Positions 8,201 to 30,357 of a DNA stretch of 31,243 nt are shown in pieces. The notes below the pieces were generated by a model that saw nothing but the letters and a program-made list of their open reading frames with translations, was not told the DNA's origin and searched no databases. This DNA is from a virus. The DNA lies in the IMG/VR virus record IMGVR_UViG_3300020179_000111, positions 1-31,243 of that record; one strand, given 5' to 3'. Both the position numbers and the translations under genes were made by a program. Positions within the stretch are counted from its first letter, which is position 1. Every line of letters begins with the position of its first letter.

Positions 8201-9417
8201 TTTTGCTCTCTTTCGAGTTCTCTAATTAGGTCGTCTGGTTTGTCATCGAAGCCTGCTTTGCGCGCACGCTCATAGATAACGTCTTTAAATAGTTCAGTTC
8301 TGCCATCCCTGTATGTAACAGTTAAATCACCGTTTTGGGGATTGTAGGTTATTTCTCTCGCCAAACTTGAATTCTTGGGGTCCATTCGCATGAGGCGCGC
8401 CGTTGCGGTTCGTGGTGGCCCACCCGGACCATCGGGGGCTGCCTGAGTCGCAGAACGAAGACCCTGTGCTCTCCTGAATGCGCCCTGAATGGTGTCTCTA
8501 TTTTTTCTGATTGCATCAACGGACGGCTTTTTGGCATCCGGCAAAAATCTTGTGGGGTCCGGCATTTCTCGCCACGTACCATCAAAAATCATTCCGTCGC
8601 CGTCGAGGTCGCGACGCTTTCGAGGGTCAAGTACCCCTTCAATAACACGCGAGGCCAGTCGACGCATTTTTCCGCCAGAACGCCGGTTTGGTATTGCGCC
8701 ACGCACCGCTCTGCCAATTGAGTAGCCGAGTCTTCCCTTAACAAAAACGTCGACAATTTCTTTGGTTGTTTTACCAACGTGGTCGCGTTTTACTAAAACT
8801 AGATTTTGGTCAGCAAGAATTTGTTTATTGACGACCTTTGTTATTTGTTCTCCGAACTGGCGCTCTATTCCACGAGACATTTTTGAACGAATGTCGTGTC
8901 TTTCTGCCAACTGAGACGCCCTATTGGGCTTGATATTAAATTGCTTGGTCCTGTTGTTAAAAGCCAACTCATTTACGCGAACCCTAAATGCTATTTCACT
9001 TTTGGCTACTGTTTGCTTAAAGTTTTTGACTTTATAGTTAAGGGACACTCGTTTTTGCCATGGCTGACTAGGGAGTCGGTGACTCGTTATCGCAGGAAAT
9101 CGAGAAGCGTTCGCGAATCTCTGAGAGTCAACCAAAACATGACTATTGTTTGATTTTGTCAGACCACTAGCAACCGCCACAACGTCTTTAGTGTCGACAA
9201 TAATTTTTTGAAATAGTTCTTCTGGAAGATTTTTAAACTCACCAACAGAAACATCAATTGGCAGGTCAGTGAGACCCGCCGTATTTTGATTGGCCCACTT
9301 TGACCACTCAATCCCTTTATCGCTCCATCCGTAATAGGTGTTAACACCAGCATTCTTAACGACAATGCCAAAATAAACGCCCCTTGCAACGTTCCTGAGC
9401 ACGGCATATTGTTTCAT
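2203..9417 (-). CDS. Giant mosaic virion polyprotein (2404 aa) with KTSC-like, ART-like and kinase-fold domains
   Basis: The start is ATG at 9417, directly after the stop of the 682-residue gene. Order along the protein: an unassigned N-terminus (1-230); an IGRA basic stretch and the RRDLDGDGMIFDGTWREMP module (260-286); a KTSC-like domain (about 341-403); five copies of a helical repeat with acidic loops (two at about 610-765, three at about 1239-1432); a basic helical stretch (about 1720-1790); an ADP-ribosyltransferase-like region (about 1860-1960, with IIRGTG and GSRAFGVGEYFAF); and a C-terminal kinase-fold domain (about 2190-2404). In the last, Lys in TKYYTKL, DAWLANWDAPLNDN and RLDVGGSL resemble the catalytic residues of HipA and type II PI4-kinase folds. 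Eleven GLxSxT-type hexapeptides start at residues 319, 441, 768, 852, 1005, 1075, 1233, 1299, 1365, 1432 and 1467. Domain names come from motif resemblance. A structural or packaged role is inferred from position behind portal and protease. Confidence 0.85.
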   Translation of the reverse strand: MKQYAVLRNVARGVYFGIVVKNAGVNTYYGWSDKGIEWSKWANQNTAGLTDLPIDVSVGEFKNLPEELFQKIIVDTKDVVAVASGLTKSNNSHVLVDSQRFANASRFPAITSHRLPSQPWQKRVSLNYKVKNFKQTVAKSEIAFRVRVNELAFNNRTKQFNIKPNRASQLAERHDIRSKMSRGIERQFGEQITKVVNKQILADQNLVLVKRDHVGKTTKEIVDVFVKGRLGYSIGRAVRGAIPNRRSGGKMRRLASRVIEGVLDPRKRRDLDGDGMIFDGTWREMPDPTRFLPDAKKPSVDAIRKNRDTIQGAFRRAQGLRSATQAAPDGPGGPPRTATARLMRMDPKNSSLAREITYNPQNGDLTVTYRDGRTELFKDVIYERARKAGFDDKPDDLIRELEREQNKLPSNPIGKLRNKKPVNKPKIVSRTSLVDRNKNSGLKSSSKLTLGEAIDIMQDLESPGVPLDPTRDFQSAFEKIWPGNNRDEWGDLISSVSAKLRTSILGDEFKKNPDAVIKKLVEGTALDIGTRSGARYDAASLAKLSEFISGVNSGKDMDATDVIASYDPKSPKTSRANALEAAIAFGLGKFANDPRARVRYQEGRGRKARLGSVIDDILGAAEGANEPDLERSLNKVKKGISLSPEEAKDIIPTLEDIAKNNDDFDGDDRLRDLINEVKDMTRSGPKSQTDKYQGLINDLQQAAEGTNEPQFVNALKKLESGKPLSDKERASLLESLKDVAKNNDDFDGDGRLSDLINDIKKGPPKDGGLASTTRSRDGWSANSDGRSWEFDGNDNHRYFIDQDDDGEFGVRSEQSLPSFDGEPNWKDMDYPETFDSLEDAKRFVNRLDSTRGLGSSTSRDRLSDKEMRKAATDKVNDLLGQLEGFDDPDWEYDDDIDDVARRWAAQNVDEPYVYAMVRDMQQDFALEDGAEADNKANFLKGVLNALDREEDRKYEKDFVPEKIDMTDMTPEEREANRPSNVSEAEYRRRTQREVARRERREDTTGFSSRTGRMGLPGGGGFGVGSREEREEAGKRARELDKDVARLKEILSGSKVPNFDSALSGLKKIDKNEIRGLRSTTDKTPKLTSWKPAYLEVPGVKDAPLGPDLSDVDFDSLTDDQLKTLIHLFDELNNRPFATPGSISPWWRSGNDEYLKDIKRVLRKRGYKIELSKTREPNYFGDYSAGDRTWQVYKEGDDSSIIFASTISDNLQERLRDSYRELEKKRRGERRGGGLRSTTDNSDTEDAINAITKLKRGEKLNPDEKQKAINALRLLRDPSKGLDEDERIELIDLENSIIGGLKSSTDTGSDIDDAVEAIMKLKRGEKLSDDEKKKALNALKLTRDKDLDEDERIGVMDMEKLIQSGGLKSSTDGSDTDDAIQAIMKVRRGEKLTPDEKQKALNALRIARSPEKGLDEDDRVGIMDMEKQIENASLASRTTGKSTRRPIKQSLTQRMSVATTERASRPRGLASTTETPDVRSDAPKAGDPDTPKKKRRTRLIIDMLDNFGKTKGEGDGVLWESMNDEQKAKAKDAIAAQKKVLSDRLKTKVFKSWWTAAQQGSDKETIRAVKKRARGEGGGTYKGRPADDPLTKDDIQDMLVVLDDAVRKGKIKKYKLNEDGTVKTDKNGQPIMTEAYSRAARDLDDLLTILNMEEDDNFSNLEHFHTGTRAAIHKNVGTGATGKFKMGDSSIAKQAGGMDKAKTVDELTDEDLGKAKKLSIGRRLLRVNEKRAAKARQRALRRTGSFRKGRIINVGDPELEMKRARLRARALKRTMLSKFRKSRDADELSRDMSKKKASLSPILIDNDGKVNVTPRYVSVLAKLDDDLTKARSSEDKVFDQVLADVWVNSGYSGEPVLVTEDEVRRLVAAGWQPIIRGTGSQDVLSEAYVEQFLSDESEARFIPGQGSRAFGVGEYFAFPGQHWSGYRGSGDQRHTMLVLVPPSADVVTVGELTRERDKMRDLTSRAVDATKALGGRDAADALTPGELAETYRKALPGLEGETSRSGQIVRQLVERLEELDKAPSSDATNKEKKEILRAFDYLSRFTRQKDVGYFAPLIGVDGIDTNDGSGVSNPFLLHNRANVAAFQRPMTSEEAENMAKTEGGAPVGSVWRSWRTRPDRSREGSPIEERKRVLIGGRRRRVSTRRPGSDGGDAGSPSDTEAPKPPTQTPATPISKSAVNTDSWTKSNPPTVGSNPATMLTDPNGTKYYTKLKKNSESVAEATERMETEVLAGKLYELAGAPVADLQMGTNNGQPVMLSRMVQTRMPSTPSDKQAARSHFVVDAWLANWDAPLNDNIKIDNNGRAVRLDVGGSLDYRAQGQKKGSGGSMGFGNSVGEMTSLQKSGNVDFTNMDKGELKKQTQRLGAITDDQIRKTVSAIVGDPARAKVLADTLIARRDDIIKRYG
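5107..5703 (-). repeat. Three tandem ~66-residue repeats in the 2404-aa giant
   Basis: Each unit has a DAI.AI.KLKRGEKL helix, a DEK.KALNAL helix, an acidic loop such as GLDEDER, and a last helix ending in a hexapeptide (GLKSST, GLKSST, SLASRT). The DNA copies have diverged, so the duplication is old or the protein is under selection. Confidence 0.9.
7099..7590 (-). repeat. Two related ~75-residue repeats in the 2404-aa giant
   Basis: Two units share AAEG.NEP, a KL/KV..G..LS helix and KNNDDFDGD.RL.DLIN. The first ends in SGPKSQT, which looks like a decayed hexapeptide, and the second in GLASTT. The pattern matches the three tandem units nearer the C-terminus, so five copies exist in all. Confidence 0.85.
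8561..8640 (-). repeat. 80-base exact repeat, copy in the 2404-aa giant
   Basis: This copy is identical to 25266-25345 and encodes residues 260-286 of the 2404-residue protein. Flanking bases diverge at once on both sides. It could be a substrate for homologous recombination between the two genes, 16.7 kb apart. Confidence 0.9.
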
Positions 9418-12130: not shown

Positions 12131-12587
12131 TCTTGGATTTCCTTCTTCTTTTTCCTTTTTTAAATTTTCGTTCTGGTGAATCAATCCAATTTGAAATCAT
12201 CTTTTGCGACCACTGGCCAGTATTTTTCGCCAATCTAAAATCCATTGCCCTGTTCTCATAATCAAGAGATTTTGGAACACGACGCAGAATGTCCTTGTTC
12301 ACCACGGACCCATCCAAAAGTTCATCATGAATGGGCAGCGATTTGCCTACAAAAACAGAATACCAGTGAACGCTGCTGTTCGATAGATGTCCATTCCAAA
12401 GGTAATCATGGAATTTCGTTCCCGAAATCCTATGCATGCCTGGATTATTGTCAACGTATTCCCAAAAATTTGTAACTCGTGCATCCCCGACTATGTTTTT
12501 TACAATGCAATCGGTTTGTTCGTCGCGCGCATCAACGACAAAATAAACTCTGTCATTACCAGATTTTCCGACAAGTATTGATTTCAT
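12123..12587 (-). CDS. Unknown small protein (154 aa) coupled to the 2981-aa giant
   Basis: The start codon overlaps the stop of the upstream giant (ATGA), which points to translational coupling. The first 100 residues look like a mixed alpha/beta domain rich in aromatic residues (DRVYFVVDARDEQTD, FWEYVDNN, VHWYSVFVGK). The C-terminus is very basic (FKKGKRRRKSK) and may be disordered or touch nucleic acid. There is no Cys cluster, membrane segment or GLxSxT hexapeptide. I do not recognise the family. Gene order suggests an accessory head or assembly protein. Confidence 0.7.
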   Translation of the reverse strand: MKSILVGKSGNDRVYFVVDARDEQTDCIVKNIVGDARVTNFWEYVDNNPGMHRISGTKFHDYLWNGHLSNSSVHWYSVFVGKSLPIHDELLDGSVVNKDILRRVPKSLDYENRAMDFRLAKNTGQWSQKMISNWIDSPERKFKKGKRRRKSKNG

Positions 12588-15500
12588 TTTGATACGGACT
12601 CTTTATCATCTTTTTTGTTGCGATTAATTCTTCGCGCGCGCCTACGGCCAATTTTAGCAGATTTTGCATTTTCGGCTATTAATGGCAGAAATGCATAAAG
12701 AACCACCAGCGGGTCGAAGTCTTCCAGATTTGTGGCTTCCTCGGGATTCGCTGATTTTACAGCCGGTCCCAATTTTTGAATAAGGGGCGAAATAACGCTT
12801 CTGCTTCCTTTCGCTGGTTGCATCAGGACACCAGTGACATTTACTGCTTCTGTTTCCTCTCCGCTTAAATTTCGCACCTTTTTTCTAGACGCTGCCGTCG
12901 TTCTGATGTCTGGGGCTCTGGCAAACAAAAACCATGCAGCGAATGCCTCAGCCAATGCTTCTGTTGCTTTGGTTGCTGCGTAACGACTTGGTTGCAGTTC
13001 TGCTTCGATTTGCCTAGTTCTGCTTCCAGATTCGTAAAGGTCTTCAATGTCGCCACCCCTGAACAACTTTTTGGTGATTCTTTTCATTTTTTCTGCTCTC
13101 GTTTCATTGGGGGGGCCGTCATCAAAAATGGACACAAACATAGACTTAAGCACTGAGGGGAGTTCCATTGTTGATTTGCTTTTATCACGTACTGCGAAAT
13201 CAAGCAGGTGTCCAAACTCATGCACCGTTGTTGCGTAGGCAAGCCTTGCCCCAACCGTGTTCACTAATTCCTCGTATTTGGCCTCATCATAATTTCGGTC
13301 AGCGGAAACGGACCGCCTCCACGGCGGCAAATTGTCGGGCATGTCGGCGCTCGGCTCCAAGAACGAATCATCAAATGCGGGTAAACCAAGTTGCGCCATA
13401 ACGGTTGGAAGTGCACCGCCAGGAACACTTATTGCATTTGCCGTGCGGCCAGGGCCATCGGTCACCTGAACTCGTTGGTGGCCCCTAAACCTTGGGCCCC
13501 AGTCTCTTTGCACGAGTCTCCTGGCTCCGTCAGTAAGTTCATGAATATTTATATCAATTCGCGTCCTTGCTTTGTCACCATCCCTAAATCTCTGTGACCT
13601 AAACAATTTTGGCCGTGGGCCAAATGTGCCGAGAACTTCAGTTGGCATAAATAAATCACTTCTGCCTTCTGCCCCACCGTCTGTAATATTTATGGAAAAA
13701 TTATTGTCTTTAAGCAATTGCTGCAGACCTGGAGTATTCAGAAGCATGTCATCAAATGCTTGCATGGCTGCGTAACCAGCGGCGTGTCGAGCAGTTGACT
13801 TCATGTCCCCCTTTTTATTCTTGAAGATGCTCTTTGACACCTCAACATCTATTCCATATTTCTTCTTAAAGTATCTCTGTGCTTGTCTGCGCGATGAACC
13901 AAATTTTTTCTTCAGTGTGTCAGGTTTTGCAACAACGGGAATGCCGAGCGAATCTCTTCCGTTTGGTAGTTCCTGCGGCCCTTGGTCCAATTTTTGACCA
14001 AGGGTTCTGCCAGAAGGTTTTGGTGGAAAATCAAAGTCTTGAGAACTTCTGGATGTTGACGATGCAAGCCCACCAGATTTTTGTTTCTGTACGTAGTCTG
14101 CTTTGGCAGTATCAAAGGCGGTTATATCTTTGTCAAATCTTTCCTGTTGTTTGGTTACGTAATTTGTCCTATTGGTTTCATCCAAAACGTCTGTTGACCA
14201 TTTATTTTTTATTGCCCCCTCTATTAGTTTTCTCATTGATTCAGCAGTCGCTTCTGCATCTGCGTCAGCGGTATGATGTTTGTCGCCAAGTTCGACCTGT
14301 AGGTATTTCGTAATGTCGGCAAGACTATTTGACGGAACATTCTTGCCAAGTTTTTTGTTGAATTTAAAAGGCCCATCAGGTTTTTCATCGGAGTATCTCG
14401 GCAACACCATTGATGCCATGTCTTTAAGGTCAATCCAGCCAGCCACGCTGAAATCGATTCCGTGCTTTTTGAGTGCGTCTTCCAAAACGTCTTTGTCAAA
14501 AGCGGCATTTTGCACTCCCATCATCGCATTGGGTCCAATAAATTCGGCAAGTCGTCTATGGGCTTCAGCAACAGATGGCTTGTTCTGTAGAAACTCATCT
14601 GTAACAAGATTGCCGTCGTAGTCCTTAAGATTGTCCCTCGACCATTGCTCCCAATCACTACGAGGAATTCCTGGATTTACATAGGTTTCAAATCTCTTTG
14701 TAACTTTTCCGTTCTTTACTTTTACAGCACCAATTTGTGTAACTTCTCCGTTGCCGGTAGAGAAATTAAATTCATCGAATTTGAGCCCTGTTGTTTCGTA
14801 GTCAAGGTAGGTTACTTCCACATCGTCGTAGCGCTTTTTGAAGTCCTCCCAATCTTTGGCTCCTTCAAAGATTTTATTCATGTCTCCAAGTATTGGACCA
14901 TATGATGGCTTTCTTGGGTATTGGGGTTTTTCGTTTTTGGTGTCCGTTGACGATTTTAGACCTGTCGTTCTGGATGCAAGTCCACGACTTTTTGGTGCTG
15001 GAATACGTGCAAATTCGTCTCCCGGTTCCATCGTTGTCAATTCCGCTGCTTCTCTCGGCTTCATGTAACCAAAATCAATATTGCCGACTCCCCCAACGTG
15101 CGCGCTGTCGCGAAGTATCTGCAAAACTTCCCGAGCGTATGCTGGATTGGAATCAGTTCGTTTTGCAACTGGCTTTGGTGCGATACCAAATTCCCATGTC
15201 CATTGATTGGCTAGAACGATTATTTCTGATATTGGTGCGTCCACGACAACAACATTCATGTAGTGGTTGTTTCCCAATATTCCGTCCATCGCATCCAAAC
15301 CCAACTGTGCAGCCCATCTATGATGACCATCAATCACGTACCCATCTCGCGAAACAAATATTGGCTTTTTACCAGGATTCCATTTTTTGGTTTCATCATA
15401 TTTTCCAGTTGCTTTATCAAACTTTCCACGAATTGCGCCACTCAACATGGTGGCAACTTTGTGTCCCTGCATATCTCTCTGTGTGGCTTTTAGTTTTTCT

Positions 15501-18500
15501 GATTGAACTTGCCTTGGTTCCGATACACGGAGACCGGCATTTTTCAAGAAAGCAACGAAACTGTCTGTTCCATCAACTTCTGTTTCTGGTTGTTCTCCTC
15601 TGGCTATTCTCTCAGCATTTTGTCTTTCAAGCCATTCTGCAGCCGTAGTTCCTGGAAGGGCGTCGCCAATTGATTGGGGCATCAAATATCTCGGCATTCC
15701 CTTATTTCCAAGGCAAAATGCGCTCGTACCTTTAACCGTTACTTGACACAAGTCAAATACAAAGTTTTTTAGTTTGTCTTCGGATATTTCTCCATTGTGA
15801 TACATCTGCTCCAAAGTTTGAACAAGTCTTGCAAAATCATCAATCAATGTATGCGCGCCTTCCATGTCGGGCATATCAACATCGTGACCGTCAAGAACGG
15901 CCAATACAGCCTCTTCGACCGTATTAACTTTCACCAATAATCTTTTTTCTTCTGGCGCTATTGGTTGATTTGTCTTTTTTTGTGCCATTTCATTCATGTA
16001 TCTTTGCCAGTCTTCGTCAGTAATTTTCGACGAGACGTTGAGGTCAGGGGTCCACAGGACTACACCATCTGCAGTTTCCGAAACTGTTCCCCTCTTTGGT
16101 GTTTGGGTTGAGGACGCGAGGCCACCCCGTGGGGATTCTGGCCTTAATCTTCTTAATTCATCGTCGACCATGGAGATAAAGTTTTTATCATTTACTGAAC
16201 TTGTGCCGAAGCCTGATTCGTTATTTGGGTGGTCAAACAGGGGCGTGCCGTTACCCTTCTCCGCCCTAATTTTCCTGTATCTCAACAATGCTTCATACGG
16301 TGTTGTCTTTTCATCCATAATTACATCTTTGGGCGAAACATCTACCCATTGCCCGGAGGAAATCTGCCTATCAACCCACTTTGCTGTCATTGCAGCGTTG
16401 AATGGTTCAACATCGTCAAGACTTAGTTCTCTTGAATCAATGATTACATCGATTCCGTATTTTTCGAACAACTCATCGCGTTGACGCGCCGCCGCAATTA
16501 GGTTTGTAAAACTTGCTTGGGGATTTGTTCCAAGCATGCTCATTTTTCCCTGTCGCCACATGTGCTCACCGCGCAAACCAAAAGGTTCGGAAACAATAGA
16601 TTCAACATCAGAAAGTTCAAAACTTCCAACTGTCAAGGACTCCACATATCGCTTTCGGCCATTGCTGCCTGCGCTAGCCACGGTATCTCTTCTTCCCGTT
16701 CGGGTTTCAAAAAGAACGGCCAATGGGTCAAAAAACATCGAGGCCAAACGCCCGTCTTCAGATAGTTTGGAAAGCCGCGCGCCCGGCTCAACCACATCGC
16801 TACCACTCGTGCTTACGTCACTTACCGAATCACCATTGATTGCGAGAGTTCGTTCTGCAACTTCAGGTCTCAAAACAATTGAATTGGCGCCATATTGACT
16901 ATCGTTTTTCCATGTTTGTTTGCGAGTTCCAGTATGTGCTGCTTGCTTCCCCTCTTTACCAATCGACGGTGCGTCGTGCTGTATTTCAATATCCTCGCCA
17001 TACAGTTCCCTTAGTCGTCGAGCCCTTGTTTCGCCTGGTAAGGTTTGCAACGTCATTGCCGAGGATGGCCTCAACGACGTTGTTTCGGAATCGGTATCGC
17101 CAGAGAAGTTCAACAATTGCGATTCTGCTGCGCGCCTTATTGCAGGAACATCAAATCCGGTTACTTGGCCGCCTTGAGTTTCTCTACCTTGATGGACGGT
17201 TTCATATCTGCCAGAAGTAATGAGGTCTACCGGACTTCTCATCAATACTGTCGCCCTTTTATCAAATGGGCTCTCAAATTTGCCCATTGCTTCTTCAATT
17301 GCTGCATCGTATTGTTCTGGCGTCATTGCGCCGACTTCTTTTATGAAATCATCTATTTGACCAACAAGTTGTTTATCGCCCCTAACATCTGCTATTTCCC
17401 GTAAAACCTCCAACCTATGACCGAATGTGTCATCTCCAGGCATTTGTCTCAGTATTTCAAGGTCAGACAATGTTGCGTTTTCCGCAAGTCTGCGCAAAAT
17501 CTGTTTATTTTCGGCACTCATAGACGTTTGGATTGCCCTCTTCACTGCCGTCATCGCTTCTGGTCTCAGTCTGTCGGCTTTTGCTTGTTCAATCAGTTTT
17601 GGGACAATCTCTCTTTCTTGCCTGTCCACGTCTACGCCAATATCACTGGCCTTTGCAAGAATGTCAATTGTTTTTTGATTAGCGCGATTGCTTCTGTTTT
17701 GTGAATTAATTTGATTTACGGTGCTTGAGCGCAACCCTGTGCTCGCCGGCATAGCCCTATCTGGATTAAATTCTCGAGGAATTTTTTCAAGTTCGTAAAT
17801 CAATTTATCGGGTTTATTTTCGGCGCCTGCGTCTCTTACTCTCCCATAGGAGACATTTTCAAATTCTCGAGATGTTCCATTTCTGTACGACACCTTAAGC
17901 GTTCGCGTTTGTGGGTCGTATTCTATCTTGTTTGCAAGTTTTGAATTTCTCGGGTCAACCTCCATGGCAACTGCCGCCTGTGTTCTGCCAACCCTTGCTA
18001 CTTCCTGACGTCGTTCAATTCTATTTTCGGCCCGCTTAGCAACAATGCGTTGACCAAGTGGACGTGATTCACTTGACCCAAGTGAGTGTAAAACCTGTCT
18101 TAGTTCGTTTAATTGTTCATCGGTTGTTTTTTGTGAAGTAATACGACCAAGCGCAACTCCATCATTTGTTCTTCCGAATATCTCTACTTCTCCTGGCGGC
18201 AAAATAAGAGAACCAACCTCACCACGCTGAGTGCCCGGAGTGTAGTCAGGAAGTCCGGTTGAACCTTCTGGAACGAGCAACATAATTCTTTGTGCGTCAC
18301 TATTTCCGTTTGGTCCAATATCTTCTGCGGAATGCACAATCGCCGTAAAATGTTTTCCGACAGTTAGTGTTGTGCCAATTTGTTCATCCGGAAGACCAAG
18401 ACTCATGGGCGGTAATTGAATTTCGGCGACCATGTCAGTTGGAACATCAGAGGAATCAATCAGGTCCATAAATGGAATGAATTGATTTTCGACGGCATTT

Positions 18501-21500
18501 ACAATTTCGTCTGGGCGAGACCTAAGCGCACGATTCCAGTCTGTCGGGTCAGATGTATTCCACAACGAACCGCGCCAATTGCCATCAACAAGTTTGCGTT
18601 GCTGTTCAGTGGCGGCGTCCAATACAACTTCTCGCATCATATTGTTTGCCCGAGAAACATCAGAACGTGACCTCATTCCGTCCAGTGTCTCTATTAATCG
18701 TCTTGCAAGTTCCTTATCGGAGTCTGGGGAACTATCCACTACCTCAACCCCCTCCATGCCAGCAATTCCAGGTATGTCGCCAAAACGTTCTGTTGCTTTA
18801 CGGTTTCTTCTTCTCTCTCGAGCCTTTTTGCCCGTAAGCGTGTCCTTTATTCCTTGACGTATTTCGTTCTTAAAATCTCTAATTACTGGCTTTGGGTCTG
18901 GATTTACGGCGCCGAAATTATCATCAATATCCGAACCGTGACGAAGCGGACCAAGAAAGGCCTCAATCTCTGGCGTCATATCAATAAGACCAGCATCAAC
19001 GCCGGTAGATATTTCTGCCTGCATTTCAGCAATCGTTAAAGAAGCGTTTCTTTTGTAGGCAGCCTGCGTTACTTGCAACAAATTTAAATCACCGCGATTG
19101 TATATTTCCGCTACTTCTGAGAACACGCTTACAGCCGCCTCAAATTCTGGGCTTTCGGGGTCCATCCTTTCCATCTTTGCCCTTAATTCAGAAAGTGGTA
19201 AATACAAGTCGTCAGTGCTTTGCATTAGATTTGAAAGAAACGGCGCTCTATGCGCCGCTTCCCAGTAATGCTTCATGGCATACCTTCCACCCATATTCTT
19301 GCCGAGAAGAACCTGCATTACTTCTGGCATGTTCGACATGGCAGTGGAAAGCCATTCCGGATTACTGATTATTGATGCATAGTCCCAATCTCTGCCCAAA
19401 AGGCTGAACATTTGTCCTCCGCCGAGCAAATTTTCTGCCAAAATCATCATGTCTTCGTTTGACATTGAATCCGCCAACCCAGGAATCGTTCGCAAATAAT
19501 TTTGAATCAACATCAATTGACGACCGTGTGTCATCTCGTGATTCATGATGTACATGCCTTGGCCGACCTGTCCAGCGTTTTTCGCATGCCAAAATTGCTG
19601 AAATCCCGTTCCTGATTCTGTTGCGTTTTGCAAGTCCTCTATTGTTTCAAGGTCATTGAGATATGCATCTCTTGCCCGTGTTCGTCCAGCAGCATCAATG
19701 GAAGAACTTATTGCTTGAAGTTTTGCAACTTCCGTGCCGACCATACCATCTGGTTCAAACAGGGTGAATTCACTCTTGCTTATCCCCATTTCTGCTTCTG
19801 TGTTCATTATTGTCCGCAGTGGGTTTATCATCATCTTGTATCCGCCGCGTTCATCCGTAAAGCAAACGGCATCGTTGGCGCCCAAATCTCGAGTGTCCGG
19901 GAATCCAATCGAAAGTTCCCTGAAGCCGTCTGTCAGTTTTGGATTATCTTTTCTTTGTTTGATAAGACCTATCAAAAGACCCGCTTCTTGTTGTCTCATT
20001 TTGTCCCATTTTGTTTGAGCCTCAAAGACAATCTTAAACATATCGGCGTCACGACCGAACACTTCTTCGGCAGTTCTTCCCCCACTCATGACTTCCATGA
20101 GTTTTTGTTTCATCAAGTTTGGATTGCCTGCAAACTTGGTGTTTATTATTGAAGCAAGTTGCTCATTGGTGAGCCCGAATTTTTGCGGGTCGCTAAACAA
20201 ATAGTCAAGTACTACATCTATTTGTCTTGCCCTATGTTCAGCCATTGCTACGTCCATTGAGCCCGCGCCAAATTTGCTGCCAAAATATGCCTTAAAATTT
20301 GCTCTCCAGCCGCCATGCTCTGGAAGATTGAGTAGGTGTAATACTTTTGCCAAACCCATTTGCACTGATTGTGGGTCTGTTGGGTCTATGTCGACACCAA
20401 GTTCTGTTGCAAAATCCAAAACGCCCTGAATGTCGGAGCGCTGCTTGTCTCGAACCTTTTGGCGCCTGACAGCAGTTTGGGTGAGTTTTTTAATTTTTTC
20501 CGGACTCAATTCCGGGTACGTTTTACGAATCATGTCCTCAAACACTTCTTCGTATCTTTCCGGTGGTATTGGCGTTGCCCTTGCGGCTAATTCAGCAACG
20601 TCTCTATCAAAATCCGGCGATGGTGGTACGTCGACAGTAATCGGTCTTCCGTCTGGCCCCAATAACTCACCCCTCGGACCTGGTACCGTTCGCGTTCTGC
20701 TGGCCAACCCGCCACGAACGCGTCGAGCCGCGCCCCCAGGCACACCGACAACATTTCCATCTTCGTCCCTCATTACGGATATTGCGCCATCAATGCTGGA
20801 AATTTCTTCCAATATGCTTGCGCTCGCCCGCTTTGCTATTTCAACGATGGCGCGTCCGATTGCTGGCGTAAAATCAAAACAGTTACTGCCGACTTCATCC
20901 GTAAACTGATTTGCTGCCGGAACACCCGGGGGACACCTCATCCTTCCGTCCGGGTCAAGAATTATTCCTACCGCTCGCGCTGCTGCCTGACCGATATTTC
21001 CGCCGACTCGACCAATAGATTGACCAAGAGCCTTGACCTCTATCTGTCCAGTTCTCTTGTTCTTCTTTGCTGGCCTAGCGATGATTTTGGGTTGATTTTT
21101 TCGTGACGCAAGGTATTTCCTAACCTCTTCGTTGTATTTGTCTGGAGCCACAACTTTGGGTATGTCAAGCCACCCAACGTTTGCAACATCACCCATTTGC
21201 CCATCAAGATTCCATCGAGGCTTTGTTTCAAAATACTGATTCGGCTTTTTGGTCGCCTTGGGGTCGTAGCAATAAATGCCCAGACGCCGGAATTTTAATT
21301 CCTTTTGACGTTTGGCTTTATTATCTGCCGCCGCGTTTCTTGCCGAACCGCCGCCGCGCCCTTTACCCATTGCAGCCTTGACTGCGTAGTCGGCGGAAAA
21401 TGGATAGACACTCAGCAACTGACGAACTTCGACAAAGTCGTTAATTCGTTCCCTAATTGATTTTTCGATGACTGGCGCGAATCGTCCGCTCGTGATGGTA

Positions 21501-21529
21501 CGAGATACGACTACTTTACGCTCCTGCAT
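12584..21529 (-). CDS. Giant mosaic virion polyprotein (2981 aa): two metallopeptidases, ART-like, ParB/Srx-like and DnaQ-like exonuclease domains
   Basis: I chose ATG at 21529 because AGGAAAAGG lies 8 bases upstream; GTG at 21538 would add three residues and lacks spacing. Order: a basic N-terminus; an RCPPG...FTD...C motif (about 195-220); zinc metallopeptidase-like HEMTH (664-668); an ADP-ribosyltransferase-like region (about 960-1130, ending LILPPGEVEIFGRT); a KTSC-like domain (about 1188-1250); a helical and unassigned region (1270-1800); a ParB/sulfiredoxin-like domain with VIDGHHRWAA (about 2065); a DEDDh exonuclease domain (about 2230-2440: YLDYETTGL, NAAFDKDVLE, HTADADAEATAE); and a C-terminal zincin with HEFGH (2770-2774) and a likely third-ligand Glu in TEALAEAFAAWF. 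GLxSxT hexapeptides start at 274, 1265, 1803, 2183, 2190 and 2487, so the ParB-like, exonuclease and C-terminal peptidase parts are each bracketed. The metallopeptidase/ParB-like combination is known from phage head-morphogenesis fusions. A packaged multi-enzyme precursor is inferred. Confidence 0.87.
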   Translation of the reverse strand: MQERKVVVSRTITSGRFAPVIEKSIRERINDFVEVRQLLSVYPFSADYAVKAAMGKGRGGGSARNAAADNKAKRQKELKFRRLGIYCYDPKATKKPNQYFETKPRWNLDGQMGDVANVGWLDIPKVVAPDKYNEEVRKYLASRKNQPKIIARPAKKNKRTGQIEVKALGQSIGRVGGNIGQAAARAVGIILDPDGRMRCPPGVPAANQFTDEVGSNCFDFTPAIGRAIVEIAKRASASILEEISSIDGAISVMRDEDGNVVGVPGGAARRVRGGLASRTRTVPGPRGELLGPDGRPITVDVPPSPDFDRDVAELAARATPIPPERYEEVFEDMIRKTYPELSPEKIKKLTQTAVRRQKVRDKQRSDIQGVLDFATELGVDIDPTDPQSVQMGLAKVLHLLNLPEHGGWRANFKAYFGSKFGAGSMDVAMAEHRARQIDVVLDYLFSDPQKFGLTNEQLASIINTKFAGNPNLMKQKLMEVMSGGRTAEEVFGRDADMFKIVFEAQTKWDKMRQQEAGLLIGLIKQRKDNPKLTDGFRELSIGFPDTRDLGANDAVCFTDERGGYKMMINPLRTIMNTEAEMGISKSEFTLFEPDGMVGTEVAKLQAISSSIDAAGRTRARDAYLNDLETIEDLQNATESGTGFQQFWHAKNAGQVGQGMYIMNHEMTHGRQLMLIQNYLRTIPGLADSMSNEDMMILAENLLGGGQMFSLLGRDWDYASIISNPEWLSTAMSNMPEVMQVLLGKNMGGRYAMKHYWEAAHRAPFLSNLMQSTDDLYLPLSELRAKMERMDPESPEFEAAVSVFSEVAEIYNRGDLNLLQVTQAAYKRNASLTIAEMQAEISTGVDAGLIDMTPEIEAFLGPLRHGSDIDDNFGAVNPDPKPVIRDFKNEIRQGIKDTLTGKKARERRRNRKATERFGDIPGIAGMEGVEVVDSSPDSDKELARRLIETLDGMRSRSDVSRANNMMREVVLDAATEQQRKLVDGNWRGSLWNTSDPTDWNRALRSRPDEIVNAVENQFIPFMDLIDSSDVPTDMVAEIQLPPMSLGLPDEQIGTTLTVGKHFTAIVHSAEDIGPNGNSDAQRIMLLVPEGSTGLPDYTPGTQRGEVGSLILPPGEVEIFGRTNDGVALGRITSQKTTDEQLNELRQVLHSLGSSESRPLGQRIVAKRAENRIERRQEVARVGRTQAAVAMEVDPRNSKLANKIEYDPQTRTLKVSYRNGTSREFENVSYGRVRDAGAENKPDKLIYELEKIPREFNPDRAMPASTGLRSSTVNQINSQNRSNRANQKTIDILAKASDIGVDVDRQEREIVPKLIEQAKADRLRPEAMTAVKRAIQTSMSAENKQILRRLAENATLSDLEILRQMPGDDTFGHRLEVLREIADVRGDKQLVGQIDDFIKEVGAMTPEQYDAAIEEAMGKFESPFDKRATVLMRSPVDLITSGRYETVHQGRETQGGQVTGFDVPAIRRAAESQLLNFSGDTDSETTSLRPSSAMTLQTLPGETRARRLRELYGEDIEIQHDAPSIGKEGKQAAHTGTRKQTWKNDSQYGANSIVLRPEVAERTLAINGDSVSDVSTSGSDVVEPGARLSKLSEDGRLASMFFDPLAVLFETRTGRRDTVASAGSNGRKRYVESLTVGSFELSDVESIVSEPFGLRGEHMWRQGKMSMLGTNPQASFTNLIAAARQRDELFEKYGIDVIIDSRELSLDDVEPFNAAMTAKWVDRQISSGQWVDVSPKDVIMDEKTTPYEALLRYRKIRAEKGNGTPLFDHPNNESGFGTSSVNDKNFISMVDDELRRLRPESPRGGLASSTQTPKRGTVSETADGVVLWTPDLNVSSKITDEDWQRYMNEMAQKKTNQPIAPEEKRLLVKVNTVEEAVLAVLDGHDVDMPDMEGAHTLIDDFARLVQTLEQMYHNGEISEDKLKNFVFDLCQVTVKGTSAFCLGNKGMPRYLMPQSIGDALPGTTAAEWLERQNAERIARGEQPETEVDGTDSFVAFLKNAGLRVSEPRQVQSEKLKATQRDMQGHKVATMLSGAIRGKFDKATGKYDETKKWNPGKKPIFVSRDGYVIDGHHRWAAQLGLDAMDGILGNNHYMNVVVVDAPISEIIVLANQWTWEFGIAPKPVAKRTDSNPAYAREVLQILRDSAHVGGVGNIDFGYMKPREAAELTTMEPGDEFARIPAPKSRGLASRTTGLKSSTDTKNEKPQYPRKPSYGPILGDMNKIFEGAKDWEDFKKRYDDVEVTYLDYETTGLKFDEFNFSTGNGEVTQIGAVKVKNGKVTKRFETYVNPGIPRSDWEQWSRDNLKDYDGNLVTDEFLQNKPSVAEAHRRLAEFIGPNAMMGVQNAAFDKDVLEDALKKHGIDFSVAGWIDLKDMASMVLPRYSDEKPDGPFKFNKKLGKNVPSNSLADITKYLQVELGDKHHTADADAEATAESMRKLIEGAIKNKWSTDVLDETNRTNYVTKQQERFDKDITAFDTAKADYVQKQKSGGLASSTSRSSQDFDFPPKPSGRTLGQKLDQGPQELPNGRDSLGIPVVAKPDTLKKKFGSSRRQAQRYFKKKYGIDVEVSKSIFKNKKGDMKSTARHAAGYAAMQAFDDMLLNTPGLQQLLKDNNFSINITDGGAEGRSDLFMPTEVLGTFGPRPKLFRSQRFRDGDKARTRIDINIHELTDGARRLVQRDWGPRFRGHQRVQVTDGPGRTANAISVPGGALPTVMAQLGLPAFDDSFLEPSADMPDNLPPWRRSVSADRNYDEAKYEELVNTVGARLAYATTVHEFGHLLDFAVRDKSKSTMELPSVLKSMFVSIFDDGPPNETRAEKMKRITKKLFRGGDIEDLYESGSRTRQIEAELQPSRYAATKATEALAEAFAAWFLFARAPDIRTTAASRKKVRNLSGEETEAVNVTGVLMQPAKGSRSVISPLIQKLGPAVKSANPEEATNLEDFDPLVVLYAFLPLIAENAKSAKIGRRRARRINRNKKDDKESVSK

Positions 21530-21555
21530 GGCAGGCACCTTTTCCTAGTCGATTA

Positions 21556-22917
21556 TTACGACTCTGGTGTGTTTTTTTGTTCCTCAACCTCTGCATTGAG
21601 TAACTCAAATTCCAACAGTTGAGACATAAAATTGTCGTCAATGGTTTTGTCATCTGCTGTTTCGGACGACTTCGAGCCAACGACCCACGTTGCCGGAATC
21701 ATTGATTCGGCGCCGAGGGCCTTTGCGCGCTTCATGATGTGGCGCTTTGCTGCCGACTTGTCTTTTGCGCGACCAAAAGCCTGAATTGCATTTGACAGGT
21801 CTTCCTTGCTTGCAATCGGGTATGAGCCGTCTGGGAGCGCAGAGCCCTCTTCGGCCATGCGCTCACGTTGCTCTGGTGAAAATGCGCGCTTTAGCGCAAC
21901 CTCTGCAGCCTCGGCCTCAATTGCTTCCGCATCCTCTTCTTCGTATTTGTCGAATCCAAGAACTTCGCCATCGAGAGAGACGAAAACATCGTACGATTTA
22001 CCATCGAGACCATCAATTTCAACTGCATAAGCGTCGTAGCCCTCGAATACATCTGGTTCGACAGCAACGACGTGGCCCTGAATTGACTTGGTTGCAATTT
22101 CTGCAGCGTCATTAAAATCAATCAGCATCATCTCGTCGACGAGTGATTTTTGTTCAAATGCGTTATTGTCCAACTTGTGCCATCCAAGAACTTCGGCACT
22201 GGTTCCGTCAATGAAAACCTCGATTGGGCGACCGTCTTTGGCTTCAACGTCAATAACGAACATGTCGGCCTCTGCAGAATATCCTGAATCAAGGACCTTG
22301 CCGTCAAACATGTCCTCGGCGATTCCCTCTACATGAAGAAGTCCTGGCATTCCTTTTTCGGCCATGCAACCACCAACACAGTCGTCGCACACTGGCTGAC
22401 CACCCGGATAGACCTTTCTGTCGATTGCGCATAGATAGCCGCGCGCACCGACATCTGCGGATTTGTATCCCATTGTGGACAGACGTCTTGATTTCATCTC
22501 TTCCATTTCGTCAGCGGGCTCTTCCTCTTCTTCCTCTTCATCTTCGTCTTCTGCTACTGCCTCATCGTCTTCTGCCGCTGCCTCATCGTCTTCGTCGTCT
22601 TCGTCGTCTTCGTCCTCCTCGTCGTCGTCTTCTTCTTCGTCTTCCATGGCGGCCTTCATCTTCATTGGCTTTTTCTTATAGCCCTTTTCTACCTCTTCTT
22701 CGTCTTCACCTTCGGCATCAACCACTTCCTGCTGGTCATCCATTTCCTCGTCGTCAGCCATCGGCATAGCCTTCATTTGAACAGGCATGGCGCCACATTT
22801 TGCGCACACTTTCGCACCAGGCGCGTAACCACAACCTTCAGCATTAACACCTTTTGCACACTTGAGTACCGAGCCGTCGCTGTCCAACTTAACAACCGCG
22901 TTCTTGTCGTAATCCAT
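21556..22917 (-). CDS. Acidic Cys-rich head-assembly protein, possible scaffold (453 aa)
   Basis: ATG at 22917 follows AAGGAG at good spacing. Residues 19-40 form a zinc-ribbon-like cluster (KCAKG..CGY..GAKVCAKCGA). An Asp/Glu tract covers about 55-140. A second Cys cluster lies at about 160-188 (YLCAIDRKVYPGG, VCDDCVGGC). Two similar beta-rich segments follow (about 194-250 and 277-330), resembling PepSY-type repeats. Residues 346-410 carry a phage-type C-terminal domain with LPDGSYPI and RHIMKRAKALG. The gene lies just after the protease, where scaffolds are commonly found, and its long acidic tract and coiled C-terminus fit such a role, but no scaffold family is clearly recognised. It has its own region upstream, separated from the protease gene by a terminator, so it may be expressed at a different level. 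Confidence 0.8.
   Translation of the reverse strand: MDYDKNAVVKLDSDGSVLKCAKGVNAEGCGYAPGAKVCAKCGAMPVQMKAMPMADDEEMDDQQEVVDAEGEDEEEVEKGYKKKPMKMKAAMEDEEEDDDEEDEDDEDDEDDEAAAEDDEAVAEDEDEEEEEEEPADEMEEMKSRRLSTMGYKSADVGARGYLCAIDRKVYPGGQPVCDDCVGGCMAEKGMPGLLHVEGIAEDMFDGKVLDSGYSAEADMFVIDVEAKDGRPIEVFIDGTSAEVLGWHKLDNNAFEQKSLVDEMMLIDFNDAAEIATKSIQGHVVAVEPDVFEGYDAYAVEIDGLDGKSYDVFVSLDGEVLGFDKYEEEDAEAIEAEAAEVALKRAFSPEQRERMAEEGSALPDGSYPIASKEDLSNAIQAFGRAKDKSAAKRHIMKRAKALGAESMIPATWVVGSKSSETADDKTIDDNFMSQLLEFELLNAEVEEQKNTPES
22520..22660 (-). repeat. Low-complexity GAA/GAC triplet tract coding for Asp/Glu
   Basis: Short TCT, TCG and TCC triplet repeats on the + strand encode the Asp/Glu tract of the acidic protein on the - strand. 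The apparent poly-Ser frame on the + strand is a shadow of it. Slippage here could vary the tract length between relatives. Confidence 0.8.
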
Positions 22918-22989
22918 TGTGATGGCTCCTTGTTATCTCGAGACGACAATAGCACGCGCCGTGCCGACCCGTTGTATTAAGAATCGTTT

Positions 22990-23030
22990 CAAAAAATTAT
23001 ACTTCACGGAGTTAGCCCGCCGTGAAGTAA
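22990..23030 (-). terminator. Intrinsic terminator after the protease gene
   Basis: Read on the - strand, TACTTCACGG (23029-23020) pairs perfectly with CCGTGAAGTA (23009-23000) around a 10-base loop. The hairpin is followed by TAATTTTTTG at 22999-22990. A 10 bp GC-containing stem with a T run is a classic rho-independent terminator. It lies 24 bases past the stop codon of the protease fusion. It should stop or attenuate portal-protease transcription, so the genes to its left may need read-through or a promoter of their own. The 70 bases between it and the acidic gene could hold one, but I find no clear -35/-10 pair. Confidence 0.75.
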
Positions 23031-23053
23031 TTGCAATTTTGCCCTTCTTCGCT

Positions 23054-26000
23054 TTACTTATCTGCCGGCATGGAACTTTTGTCAACAAACGTTGACATAG
23101 CCGCAGAAGCAACTTTTTCAAGCAATTCTGCAAAAATTTCCCCACGAGTTCCAACACCACCATCCTTCCCGGCAGTTTTTTGTCTGTCGATTACGGCCAT
23201 CACCGCATCAAGAATTTTGTCTGCTTCGTCCGCGGTAATTTTTATTGAGCCAACGTTTGTTCTTTTTGACCCTGCTGTAAATGCTCCTGCTTCGTATTTC
23301 TTTATTTTTTCTTGAAGTATTGTCAGGCCCTTTTTGGTTGAGTCAGAATCTGCACTTCTAATCTCCTTCGACAGAGAATCGTCTATTTTTCTCCACCAAG
23401 TGGATTCATTGGTTATCTCTGTTCTGGGTGCCTTTTCTGTTGAAGAGGCAAGCCCCCGAGCCTGTTTTTTGCGTCTATTTGACTTTTGGAATGCCCTGGC
23501 TTTGGCTGTGCTACTTTCCAAACCAGAAATACTGTCGAGTGCGGTTTCTTCATCAAATTCCGTCAAATCCCCTGTTCCGTCGTCTCCATATATTTCATCT
23601 ATGTTGGCGCCAGCAGATATGTCGTCATCATCGTCGTCTAAGCCATATCTTTCGGCGCGTCTCCCTCGACGTCTCAATTCTTCTCCTGCTTCAGTCGAAA
23701 ATCCTCCACCACCAGCGCTTTCTACATTTTCTGCATCCAATTCGTCTTCGGAATCCCTGGCCCTTCCCTGACCGCGTTCAAGATTTTGATTGACGCGATA
23801 CATGAACTCTAGAAGTTCTTTCTCCTTCTTGGTCATTTTTCTAGTTTGTCTCACTTCTTTTATTGGGTCGTATTCCACAAGCGATTCGGCAAGTTCCGCT
23901 AGTCCGTTGTCCAATTCTTCGATTGCATCTTTAAAGTTTTGTGGTGTCGGCTCAACCCCATCTTCCGGATAGACAGTTGAAACAATCTTGTCAGCAATAT
24001 CTCTTACGGCGTTACCAAACTCTTCGTCAACACCATTCATTTTGGAACCCAAACTCACCGTTTCTGCCCACGCCTTAATTTCTCTTTCTTCGGTGCGCAA
24101 TTTTGTTGGTGGTGTTTTTGGCGCTGTGGGTTTCGGCTTTGGCTTTGGCGTGTCTTGAGTACTTGGTTCGGGCTCTGTTGGTTTTATGGCCCTAACCTTC
24201 TTTGCCTCATCTCTTTCTCTATCTTCATCTTTTCGCATCGTTTGTTCAATCAGATAATCATCCAAACTTCTGATTGACTTTTGCCATCGCGAACTCCTAT
24301 TCAATGTTTCAAGTTTTTTTCTATTGTCGCCGAACCAGGCCAACTGCTCGTCTACATCCATTTCCTTCCAATTTTTAGGAAATATTTCCGCCTTGATATA
24401 GGGTTCAAGCAAATCTACTTTCTCGCCATCAATCTTCTTTTCGTAGACAATCTCTGGCGGATTTCCCCGTACTTCAAATGGGGAGTGTTGTATTCCTTTA
24501 CCATCTTTATCACGTGGCCATGGAGTTCCGACTTCCTTACCTCGGGCTGCGCTGACTTTGCCACCACGAGTGTCAACACCACGCTGAAGTCTTTGTTTGG
24601 CCTTCTCTGAATCTGACCGTATTTTCCTAATTCTCTCCCCTCGTTGTGTGAGTCGCCCAATCGGACTGTCTTGTTCGTCCAGTTCTCTGTCGCGCGCCTC
24701 ACCCTGTTCCAAGGTGAGTGTGTTTTTCGTTTGTTTATTTGTTCTAAAATATTCGCCCTTTTCAATAAGTTCGTTTAGAACTTCAAATGGCGTTCTTCCT
24801 TTTTCCATTTTTCTTTCTTTTTGTTGATGTTTACCGCTTTTTTCAAGGCCATCTTTGACTTGTGGCCACGCCGCACGCAACTCTTCCAACATTTTTTCGT
24901 CGATATCAGGCAAATGGTCTTGCGTTTGCTTTGGTCTTGTTAAACCAGTTGGTGCCCCAAACTCATTTACTTCTGGTGTAAGTTCCGTATATCGCTTGGC
25001 TTCCTTTATCGCTTTGGCAATTCTTCTGACTATGTGGTCATCTGGCAACGACGCGCCATCTTCTTTCAAAAAATCTTCAAACATTCTTTCAATTTTTGGT
25101 TTTGTTTTTCTTGGGATTAAGAAGGGAACGATTGTTCGCCCCTTCCTTTGTGCCGTTATGTACCAGGGTTCGCCGCCCTGCCATTTGGGTTTTTTGGGTG
25201 GAGTGTTGTCCGCGGGGGGGTTTGTTTCAGACCTCAGTCCCTGTGTGGCAAATCTTGTTGGGTCTGGCATTTCTCGCCACGTACCATCAAAAATCATTCC
25301 GTCGCCGTCGAGGTCGCGACGCTTTCGAGGGTCAAGTACCCCTTCGATTCTGGCTAGCGCGGCCCTGCCGCGCCTAACTTTTCCCCCACCACCGATGCCC
25401 CTACCGATTCTTCCAAGCAATGACTTGGTTGCGTTTTCCACCGCCTCATAAGCATCTCCAATTAGAGGAGAGGAAATAACGATGCCGTCCTCCGTCACGT
25501 ACGATTCAATCCTGTGATAATCAAACACCGGGTCAAGCGCCTGCTTCGTGGAAAAAGCGTCTTCAGGTGAGCAAGGGATTACCCAAACGTCAACGTCATG
25601 AGACTTTGTGTCCAGAAGTTCATTAAGGGAAGTTGTTATATCAAGTAATTTTTGCGTGATTTCATTATGTTCAGCAGCACTAACCTTGCTGAGGAAAATT
25701 GACTCAAGACTTTCCTCTTCAGACTTGGACGAATCAAAAAACCCGCTTTGAATTCCTGAGTTGCCATATCTCACTGGAATAATCGGACCCTCTGGTCTAC
25801 TCGGTTTTTGTGCCACGCCAGGAAAATTTGGAATTCTTGGCGTTGCTTGTTGACCTGGGGTTGGTCGACCAGAACTCGGCATGCCCGCCATTGGTCTATT
25901 GATGAGCATTGGCGTTACAATTTTTTCTGGTTTACCAAACATGTATTGTTCGCCATCAAAGTAATAACCAAGACGAAACATTCCCTTACCTGGTTTTAGG

Positions 26001-29046: not shown

Positions 29047-30357
29047 ATGGTGACTAAAGATTGGAACAAAGTCCTTGAATATCTAGAACCCAAAGCACCG
29101 TCTTTTTGTCCTGAAAAGCCGTCAATAAATCAAAGAGTTTTTTTAAGAACATACTCAATCGAGGCCTTGTTTGGTGGTGCTGCTGGCGGGGGAAAATCCT
29201 CAGCGCTATTGATGGCAGCCCTTCAATATGTTGATGTTCCTGGATATTCAGCGATTTTGTTTAGAAGAACTTTCGCTGACCTGTCTCTTCCCGGTGCCTT
29301 AATGGACAGATTCAGGTCTTGGGTAGGTCAATACGATGACGTTCACTGGAATAACAATAGTTTTGTCGCAACGTTTCCATCTGGGGCACGAGTTTCGTTC
29401 GGTTACCTAAATAACACAAATGACTATTTGCGATATAAGGGTTCAGAATTTCAATTCATCGGGATGGATGAAGTTACAGAAATTAGAGAGTCTGATTATC
29501 GGTATTTGTTTTCCCGACTTCGTCGCCCTGCTAGCGGTCCGTTGTCTGCTGTTCCGCTACGAATGAGATGTGCTTCCAACCCGGCCCCCAACTGGGTGAG
29601 ACAAAGATTTATTGTCGAAGGAAAAGAAAAGAATAGGATTTTCGTTCCATCTCGTCTTACTGATAATCCAGGAATCGACGCCGATTCGTATCGGCAGGCG
29701 CTTTCGGCTCTTGACCCAATTGAACGCCGCCGACTCGAAGAGGGCGACTGGTGGTCCACGACCCTTGGGACTATGTTCGATAGAACATCAGTCATTATAA
29801 TAGACAATGACGAAATACCAACCACCACGTCATCTGCTCGAGTCGTTCGGTTCTGGGACCTAGCGGCAACCGAACCGAGCCAGTCCACCCCCGACCCAGA
29901 CTGGACCGTAGGAACCCTAATGATGTTCGACCAGGGGATTGCGCATGTACTGGATGTCAAGAAAAAGCGGGTTAAGGCCGACAAAGTCGAGCAATTCATA
30001 GCCCAAACCGCCTATGAGGACGGCGTTACCGTGCCAATCAGAATGGAGCAGGAACCGGGGTCTTCGGGTAAAGCCATTATCGACCAATTTGCCAGATATG
30101 TCCTTCCGGGCTTTGATTTTGGGGCAATTCGGTCCACTGGGGACAAAATAACCAGGGCTAGGCCATTTGCAGCCGCCCTTGCCAACGGCAACGTAAAAGT
30201 CGTCAGGGGTGCCTGGATTGGCGATTGGCTGGATGAATTATCGGCTTTTCCTGAATCGGCCCCCCACGACGACCAGGTCGACTCGGCTACGGGGGCCTTC
30301 AATTATTTGACTGGTTTGGGGTTGCCACAGAGGAGAAAAGTCAGTATCGTGGTGTGA
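29047..30357 (+). CDS. terL: Terminase large subunit (436 aa)
   Basis: This is the motor and nuclease that drives DNA into the prohead and cuts the concatemer. The ATPase domain has Walker A GGAAGGGKSS (Lys50) and Walker B FQFIGMDE (Asp141, Glu142). The RNase H-like nuclease has Asp271 in RFWDLAATE, Glu334/336 in MEQEPGSSGKA and Asp408/409/412 in HDDQVDS. Every motif is intact. At 436 residues it is somewhat short for the family. An in-frame TGA directly precedes ATG 29047, so no longer N-terminus is possible; GTG at 29050 is an alternative. There is no clear ribosome binding site. The gene is divergent from the portal operon with only 36 bases between starts, so its promoter must lie there or inside the 59-residue gene. 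No small terminase subunit is recognised here. Confidence 0.95.
   Translation: MVTKDWNKVLEYLEPKAPSFCPEKPSINQRVFLRTYSIEALFGGAAGGGKSSALLMAALQYVDVPGYSAILFRRTFADLSLPGALMDRFRSWVGQYDDVHWNNNSFVATFPSGARVSFGYLNNTNDYLRYKGSEFQFIGMDEVTEIRESDYRYLFSRLRRPASGPLSAVPLRMRCASNPAPNWVRQRFIVEGKEKNRIFVPSRLTDNPGIDADSYRQALSALDPIERRRLEEGDWWSTTLGTMFDRTSVIIIDNDEIPTTTSSARVVRFWDLAATEPSQSTPDPDWTVGTLMMFDQGIAHVLDVKKKRVKADKVEQFIAQTAYEDGVTVPIRMEQEPGSSGKAIIDQFARYVLPGFDFGAIRSTGDKITRARPFAAALANGNVKVVRGAWIGDWLDELSAFPESAPHDDQVDSATGAFNYLTGLGLPQRRKVSIVV

Follow-up and report, generated by a model that had tools for sequence, protein, structure and literature searches.

The 31-kb IMG/VR fragment IMGVR_UViG_3300020179_000111 (31,243 nucleotides, the whole of which is the window analyzed here) encodes on its minus strand a giant protein, P0001, that strings enzyme-like modules together in one chain. 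On balance, we consider it probable that P0001 is a polyprotein, one of several that a tailed phage makes, and that it is packaged in the virion and cut at recurring hexapeptides, most likely by its own first HExxH domain (HExxH 1). Its open reading frame, at positions 12584 to 21529, starts with an ATG at 21529, ends with the stop codon at 12584-12586 and specifies 2,981 amino acids. A GTG at 21538, nine bases upstream of the ATG, is a possible alternative start; residue numbers given here are counted from it, so that the ATG is residue 4. The plus strand across the same span has many stops.

Four giant polypeptides of the window, among them the one with the head-maturation protease, together contain 20 copies of the hexapeptide GLxSxT. 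There are 6 copies in P0001 and 8, 3 and 3 in the other three, compared to means of 0.06, 0.07, 0.02 and 0.02 after shuffling; for P0001, the maximum in 2,000 shuffles was 2. The portal and terminase proteins of the window do not contain it, and a single GLLSNT in a 682-residue protein, whose position is shared by most relatives, seems to belong to a fold. The copies in P0001 (all minus strand) are GLASRT at residues 277-282 (20693..20710), GLRSST at 1268-1273 (17720..17737), GLASST at 1806-1811 (16106..16123), the double GLASRT-T-GLKSST at 2186-2198 (14945..14983) and GLASST at 2490-2495 (14054..14071). In an AlphaFold model of residues 506-1700, the copy at 1268 lies within an extended region of low confidence (1255-1327) that connects folded domains. 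The 22 copies in the window use four Gly, five Leu, six Ser and four Thr codons, close to the overall usage of the genes, with no DNA repeat conserved among them. Because the codons are mixed, selection acts on the peptide. It is also this codon diversity that in the main refutes a DNA-level reading, in which the hexapeptides would be recombination sites aiding the shuffling of cassettes: their coincidence with module borders is what such sites would predict, and we regard this explanation as barely credible.

The form of the hexapeptide is specific to the phage lineage. Relatives were recruited with the DNA pattern DLDGDGMIFDGT, made for a tag common to three of the polypeptides, and larger pieces of their contigs were then retrieved; the contigs are fragmentary, and some are near-duplicates (G001/G005, G007/G030 and G053/G044). 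In a de novo k-mer search, an L-x-S hexapeptide ranked first or nearly first among enriched words in the majority of the genomes examined, and likewise in the protease giants of distant relatives. These x-L-x-S-x-x words differ by lineage, and a table of classes against genomes comes out almost diagonal, with one form per genome, the classes being patterns defined after the enriched words were seen. GLxSxT is the form of the window and of G015, G028, G021 and G023; [ST]LRSxG that of G004, G022 and G034; GLxSxR that of G005, G006, G010 and G001; RLASGR that of G026; SL[SA]SG[AE] that of G007, G030 and G031; and [KR]LSSG[RKA] that of G008, G003 and G002. More distant relatives have GARSxS, GMRSxR, GFSSxT or GFxSxG, and G033 has no clear class. 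Orthologous proteins carry copies at the same place in the local form: the hexapeptide after the N-terminal module reads GLASRT, GLASTT, SLRSTG, GLASSR or SLSSGA, and the protease polypeptide has three matching sites, at residues 488, 1060 and 1083 in the window and at 494, 1072 and 1099 in the GARSxS lineage. The original prediction, made from the letters of the window, had noticed hexapeptides around the domains of P0001, but overlooked that they are common to the head-protease polypeptide and are lineage-specific.

That prediction described two HExxH peptidase-like domains, an ART-like region, a KTSC-like domain, a ParB/Srx-like domain and a DEDDh exonuclease in one open frame. The frame, the exonuclease, the ParB/Srx and ART folds and the conservation of both HExxH motifs all hold, and there is a seventh module, F3, that had not been claimed; the weaker parts are the ART domain, in which catalytic residues are not conserved, the KTSC match, which is below cut-off, and HExxH 1, which has no fold assignment. 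The chain (all minus strand) begins with the N-terminal module F1 (20711..21529; motif RCPPGVPAANQFTDxxxSNCF), presumably an assembly or targeting module. HExxH 1, a candidate separase, follows at residues 567-777 (19208..19840), with its HEMTH motif at residues 667-671 (19526-19540). The H, E and H residues are invariant in 14 of 14 aligned homologs, and the motif is present at the same position in 16 of 17 distant loci, the frame of the remaining one (L277) being unreadable. The ART-fold domain, residues 927-1140 (18119..18760), matches ART folds in its predicted structure with Z 13.9 over 162 residues at 2.9 A; the matches include an ART-ARH effector (Z 13.9) and C3 exoenzymes (Z 13.8). The fold is thus firm, whereas activity is doubtful and the domain may be inactive, because no Glu before LPPG, no STS-like motif and no catalytic residues of the R-S-E type are seen to be conserved in the alignment on which this judgment is based. 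The KTSC-like module, residues 1181-1261 (17756..17998), recurs in 11 places; its match to Pfam PF13619 is weak (19.1 bits versus a gathering cut-off of 25).

F3, residues 1370-1805 (16124..17431), is an alpha/beta module present in two copies in some relatives, with R1563 and E1633 invariant. Pfam profile searches of the HExxH 1 region and of F3 returned nothing useful, nor did a profile search of F3 against PDB sequences, and the F3 alignment is too variable for a motif-based search of viral contigs. The ParB/Srx-fold core, residues 2000-2123 (15170..15541), contains DGHHRW, whose DGHH is invariant in all 21 relatives; its predicted structure matches the ParB N-domain (Z 6.4 over 88 residues) and sulfiredoxin (Z 5.3), both middling values, and its profile has no match in Pfam or PDB sequences. 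The exonuclease, residues 2241-2456 (14171..14818), is firmly assigned by sequence to the DEDDh group of the DnaQ/PolC type: it matches Pfam RNase_T at 2245-2433 (E=2e-13; 51.7 bits, cut-off 24), PHROG_192 (2e-22), PolC profiles (1e-13) and a PolC exonuclease in PDB (1e-6), its DxE and HxxxxD motifs are present, and DYE and HHTADAD are invariant in the alignment of homologs. HExxH 2, residues 2538-2928 (12755..13927), has HEFGH at 2773-2777 (13208-13222), conserved in relatives, and is predicted to fold as an M34/PPEP-type zincin, scoring Z 11.8 against M34-type zincins (192 residues) and Z 9.0 against PPEP-1; its Pfam match is only 0.16. The model of residues 1806-2984 from which these folds come is weak (predicted local distance difference test, 55), and only the ParB core and the second zincin were taken from it; the exonuclease region is poor in this model, although the sequence match is firm. 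Foldseek with this model alone gave no significant match, and the ParB and zincin folds were ranked by a second structural aligner. Searches of P0001 against cultured phages gave only single-domain matches.

These modules move between proteins and phages, and the borders at which they do so carry hexapeptides. According to profile searches, G015 has F3 and ParB in exchanged positions and lacks the exonuclease, and G021 has a second F3 in place of the exonuclease. In G007, the exonuclease lies in a different giant, of 2,583 residues, spanning from hexapeptide to hexapeptide, and the protease giants of G007 and G008 contain KTSC as a lone module flanked by hexapeptides. A test that counted hexapeptides, of classes again defined after the enriched words were seen, at the ends of query modules found one no more than 25 residues from both ends in 62% of 21 module blocks, compared to 2.5% at random placement; several of the blocks come from close relatives, and thus they are not 21 independent cases. 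The exonuclease of L160 is 94% identical to that of P0001, yet is bordered by RLASGR, where the borders here are GLKSST and GLASST. Together with the separate folds and the position of hexapeptide 1268 in a low-confidence linker, the shuffling bears out the view that P0001 is made of independent modules and not of one continuous domain. The statement that most of them are bracketed by hexapeptides was right for F3, ParB, the exonuclease and the second zincin, each of which has its own fragment; the first zincin, ART and KTSC lie together in one fragment (277-1267).

How such a polyprotein might work can be outlined as follows. The conserved N-terminal module would serve assembly into the head. 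Behind it stand a permanent HExxH peptidase and changing enzyme modules separated by x-L-x-S-x-x, which a phage peptidase would read and cut during assembly or after entry. The exonuclease, the ParB-like module, the second zincin and F3 would thereby be freed for separate action early in infection. Packaging and injection are suggested by the position of the gene and by precedents. That some ten to twenty copies in a genome change in concert calls for a trans-acting reader. Cleavage by a phage peptidase is the most straightforward interpretation; the substrates of prohead proteases offer an analogy (PMC10052503), as do polyvalent proteins, which Iyer et al. suggested are processed by their zincins (PMC5512222). 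The most likely cutter is HExxH 1, with the S78 head protease as the second candidate; wherever a relative could be examined for them, both are present, and HExxH 1 is kept in all relatives with a readable frame. Across 190 genome pairs, sequence identity separates pairs of the same hexapeptide class from pairs of different classes best for HExxH 1 (area under the curve, 0.999), followed by the N-terminal module (0.988) and S78 (0.925). Among pairs matched for identity of S78 (92-94%) and of the N-terminal module (60-63%), HExxH 1 identity is 49-50% when the class is shared and 25-28% when it is not. This class-wise identity leans towards HExxH 1 as the cutter without deciding the matter.

Several results weigh against this account. 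Neighboring segments (ART and residues 300-540) show a similar, if less clean, step in identity, and since they largely share it, the evidence for HExxH 1 is not specific to that domain. Structure search did not assign a fold to HExxH 1; it and F3 were left without one because ART matches filled the list, which is no evidence of a new fold. Some junctions have no hexapeptide, the first zincin, ART and KTSC being continuous, and in G008 and G003 none follows the N-terminal module. In L156 and L178, a whole cassette interrupts the ART-fold domain immediately ahead of the LLxPG strand (bordered in L178 by GLRSSS on both sides), and its excision would split that domain.

On the one hand, the reader could be the S78 (HK97-type) protease at the start of P0003, cutting all hexapeptides in trans in the prohead. 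All 15 distant relatives tested have this protease, always in a long open frame (1,242-4,315 residues), and wherever the frame was read, the polypeptide that holds it also carries hexapeptides. Proteases of the T4 and phiKZ types cut ejection proteins. Prohead proteases do so in SPN3US (PMC10052503), and HK97 gp5 is cut between K and SLGSDA, a sequence that fits x-L-x-S-x-x (PMC5701804). However, S78 is 92-96% identical across genomes whose classes differ (GLxSxT, GARSxS, [ST]LRSxG and RLASGR), and the capsid proteins do not contain the lineage hexapeptide: they have no class-specific site, only a candidate site K[SAT]Lx[NG]GRNG that is the same across classes, and were therefore rejected as proof of S78 cutting at the hexapeptide. 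Cleavage by S78 thus appears unlikely, if still the strongest of the alternatives. On the other hand, the hexapeptides could be uncut spacers or docking peptides in a protein that acts whole, like the virion RNA polymerase of N4, which is packaged unprocessed despite a peptidase domain (PMC5512222). Linkers between domains are frequently short and repeated; flexible linkers, however, require neither a fixed G-L-x-S-x-T nor that some 10-20 copies in a genome change together, and the peptide is found again in the polypeptide of the protease. We find this explanation quite improbable.

As a multi-enzyme chain, P0001 is a polyvalent protein, a type of phage protein with 2 to 15 domains in one chain (Iyer et al. 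2017, PMC5512222); thus, the expectation that such a series would be exceptional was not borne out. Its domains are disparate (exonuclease, ParB/Srx fold, ART fold and zincin fold), two HExxH motifs are conserved, the second within a zincin fold, and the gene is linked to virion genes: the window also encodes the portal, the S78 protease and the terminase, and in relatives the capsid gene lies downstream. The original suggestion of a packaged effector kit would fit this place between the portal, protease and capsid genes, as well as the precedents. Polyvalent proteins likewise combine unrelated enzyme domains, among them zincin, ART and ParB-like, near virion genes, and self-processing by the zincin was predicted for them (PMC5512222). 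Unlike in those proteins, the modules of P0001 are delimited by a lineage-specific separator that is found in several polypeptides of the cluster, including that of the head protease, and that stays with the border when modules move; in the accessible text of Iyer et al., we found no mention of a separator peptide (PMC5512222). The DdrB and DarA operon proteins of phage P1, which have ParB and peptidase domains, are packaged in the head and proteolytically processed, as P0001 would be; there, as reviewed, one processing event occurs, with no repeated separator and in a different phage group (PMC5512222). In SPN3US, the prohead protease gp245 recognizes a short consensus (A-x-E sites) and cuts several virion proteins, some of them multiply (PMC10052503), as may happen here; however, it removes N-terminal propeptides, whereas here whole enzyme modules lie between sites, the consensus differs, and the role of S78 is putative. 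HK97 gp4/gp5 maturation shares with the present system an S78 protease, an HK97-like capsid protein and the x-L-x-S site of gp5, although HK97 has neither a giant fused protease nor polyproteins. The lineage-specific versions of the peptide suggest that, like some RNA viruses, tailed phages make polyproteins that are cut into parts.

One separator peptide per phage lineage, common to several polypeptides and kept at the borders while modules move, is apparently new. We found nothing in the literature on phage polyproteins with head proteases, in a search that largely left out subscription papers, and thus the novelty is provisional. The system seems to be widespread yet confined to uncultured phages, because module F1 was found in 278 IMG/VR contigs and in 0 of 84,980 prokaryote genomes, and the tag, searched as DGDGMIFDGT, matched no cultured phage. 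An open question for polyvalent proteins is how domains with different targets separate after delivery as a single chain, and a fixed separator peptide is a precise, testable answer to it. The separator also provides a rule for dividing giant unannotated phage proteins into their true modules, and it points to candidate site-specific peptidases with different specificities that can be read from the genome. More tentatively, and with odds that we place somewhat against it, the early effectors of a large group of uncultured tailed phages may be polyproteins with a phage-specific "barcode" that co-evolves with the embedded separase HExxH 1; acquired modules would be usable only once they carry the local barcode, and other groups would use HDQxxHGxWA around the same modules.

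The gene neighborhood is that of a tailed phage. On the minus strand, the portal protein P0005 (26790..28823) is followed by P0003 (23054..26701), a 1,215-residue polypeptide with the N-terminal S78 head-maturation protease domain (26186-26644; Pfam PF04586, 40.1 bits with a cut-off of 21; PHROG_80, 1e-25) and GLRSET, GLESST and GLASST downstream of it, then by an acidic protein and P0001. Beyond P0001 lie three smaller genes, the second giant polypeptide P0002 (2203..9417, minus; 2,404 residues) with 10 hexapeptides, 8 of them strict GLxSxT, and P0008 (1..1791, minus), which runs off the window after 597 residues and has a sigma-70 region 4 domain flanked by hexapeptides, possibly a packaged transcription factor. 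The terminase large subunit is encoded on the plus strand (29047..30357). The host is probably actinobacterial, because the closest annotated relatives of the terminase and protease, at about 40% identity, belong to phages of Gordonia, Brevibacterium and other Actinobacteria.

Some further observations concern these polypeptides and their relatives. The tag, VLDPxxRRDxDGDGMIFDGTWREMP, stands directly before the first hexapeptide in three polypeptides: at residue 463 of P0003 (about 25290-25315), residue 270 of P0002 (about 8575-8610) and about residue 253 of P0008 (about 1005-1035). It is EF-hand-like and perhaps a head-targeting or metal-binding element. P0002 has three tandem units of ~66 residues at 1233-1437 (about 5107-5721), each opening with a hexapeptide (in order GLRSTT, GLKSST and GLKSST, then SLASRT), and a kinase-like domain at its C-terminus (residues 2179-2404; 2206-2883) that is homologous to parts of T5-like phage proteins named ADP-ribosyltransferase and to Gordonia phage proteins. 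The S78 protease is found in open frames of 4,315, 4,109 and 3,967 residues in G050, G049 and G048. In three relatives, the lineage hexapeptide occurs in the middle of tape-measure-like proteins: GLASST in G015 (27527-32446), SLASGA in G007 (92600-97543) and GLFSAR, GLGSLR and GLQSAR in G010 (20843-25495). Other phages (L007, L003, L045, L041, L106 and others) have a different repeated separator between modules, (G)xHDQxxHGxWAxG, which adjoins or flanks the same ParB module in quite different phages; many of the proteins with this separator also carry a DxDGDGxxxDG tag. The portal protein has a collagen-like PGMPGAPGMPG repeat in its C-terminal part (residues about 415-460; about 27440-27580). 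A Rad52/22-like annealing protein (Pfam, 4e-10) at 30889-31242 is truncated by the end of the window, and a second contig, IMGVR_UViG_3300021092_000446 (L002 and L011), matches the right part of the window almost identically.

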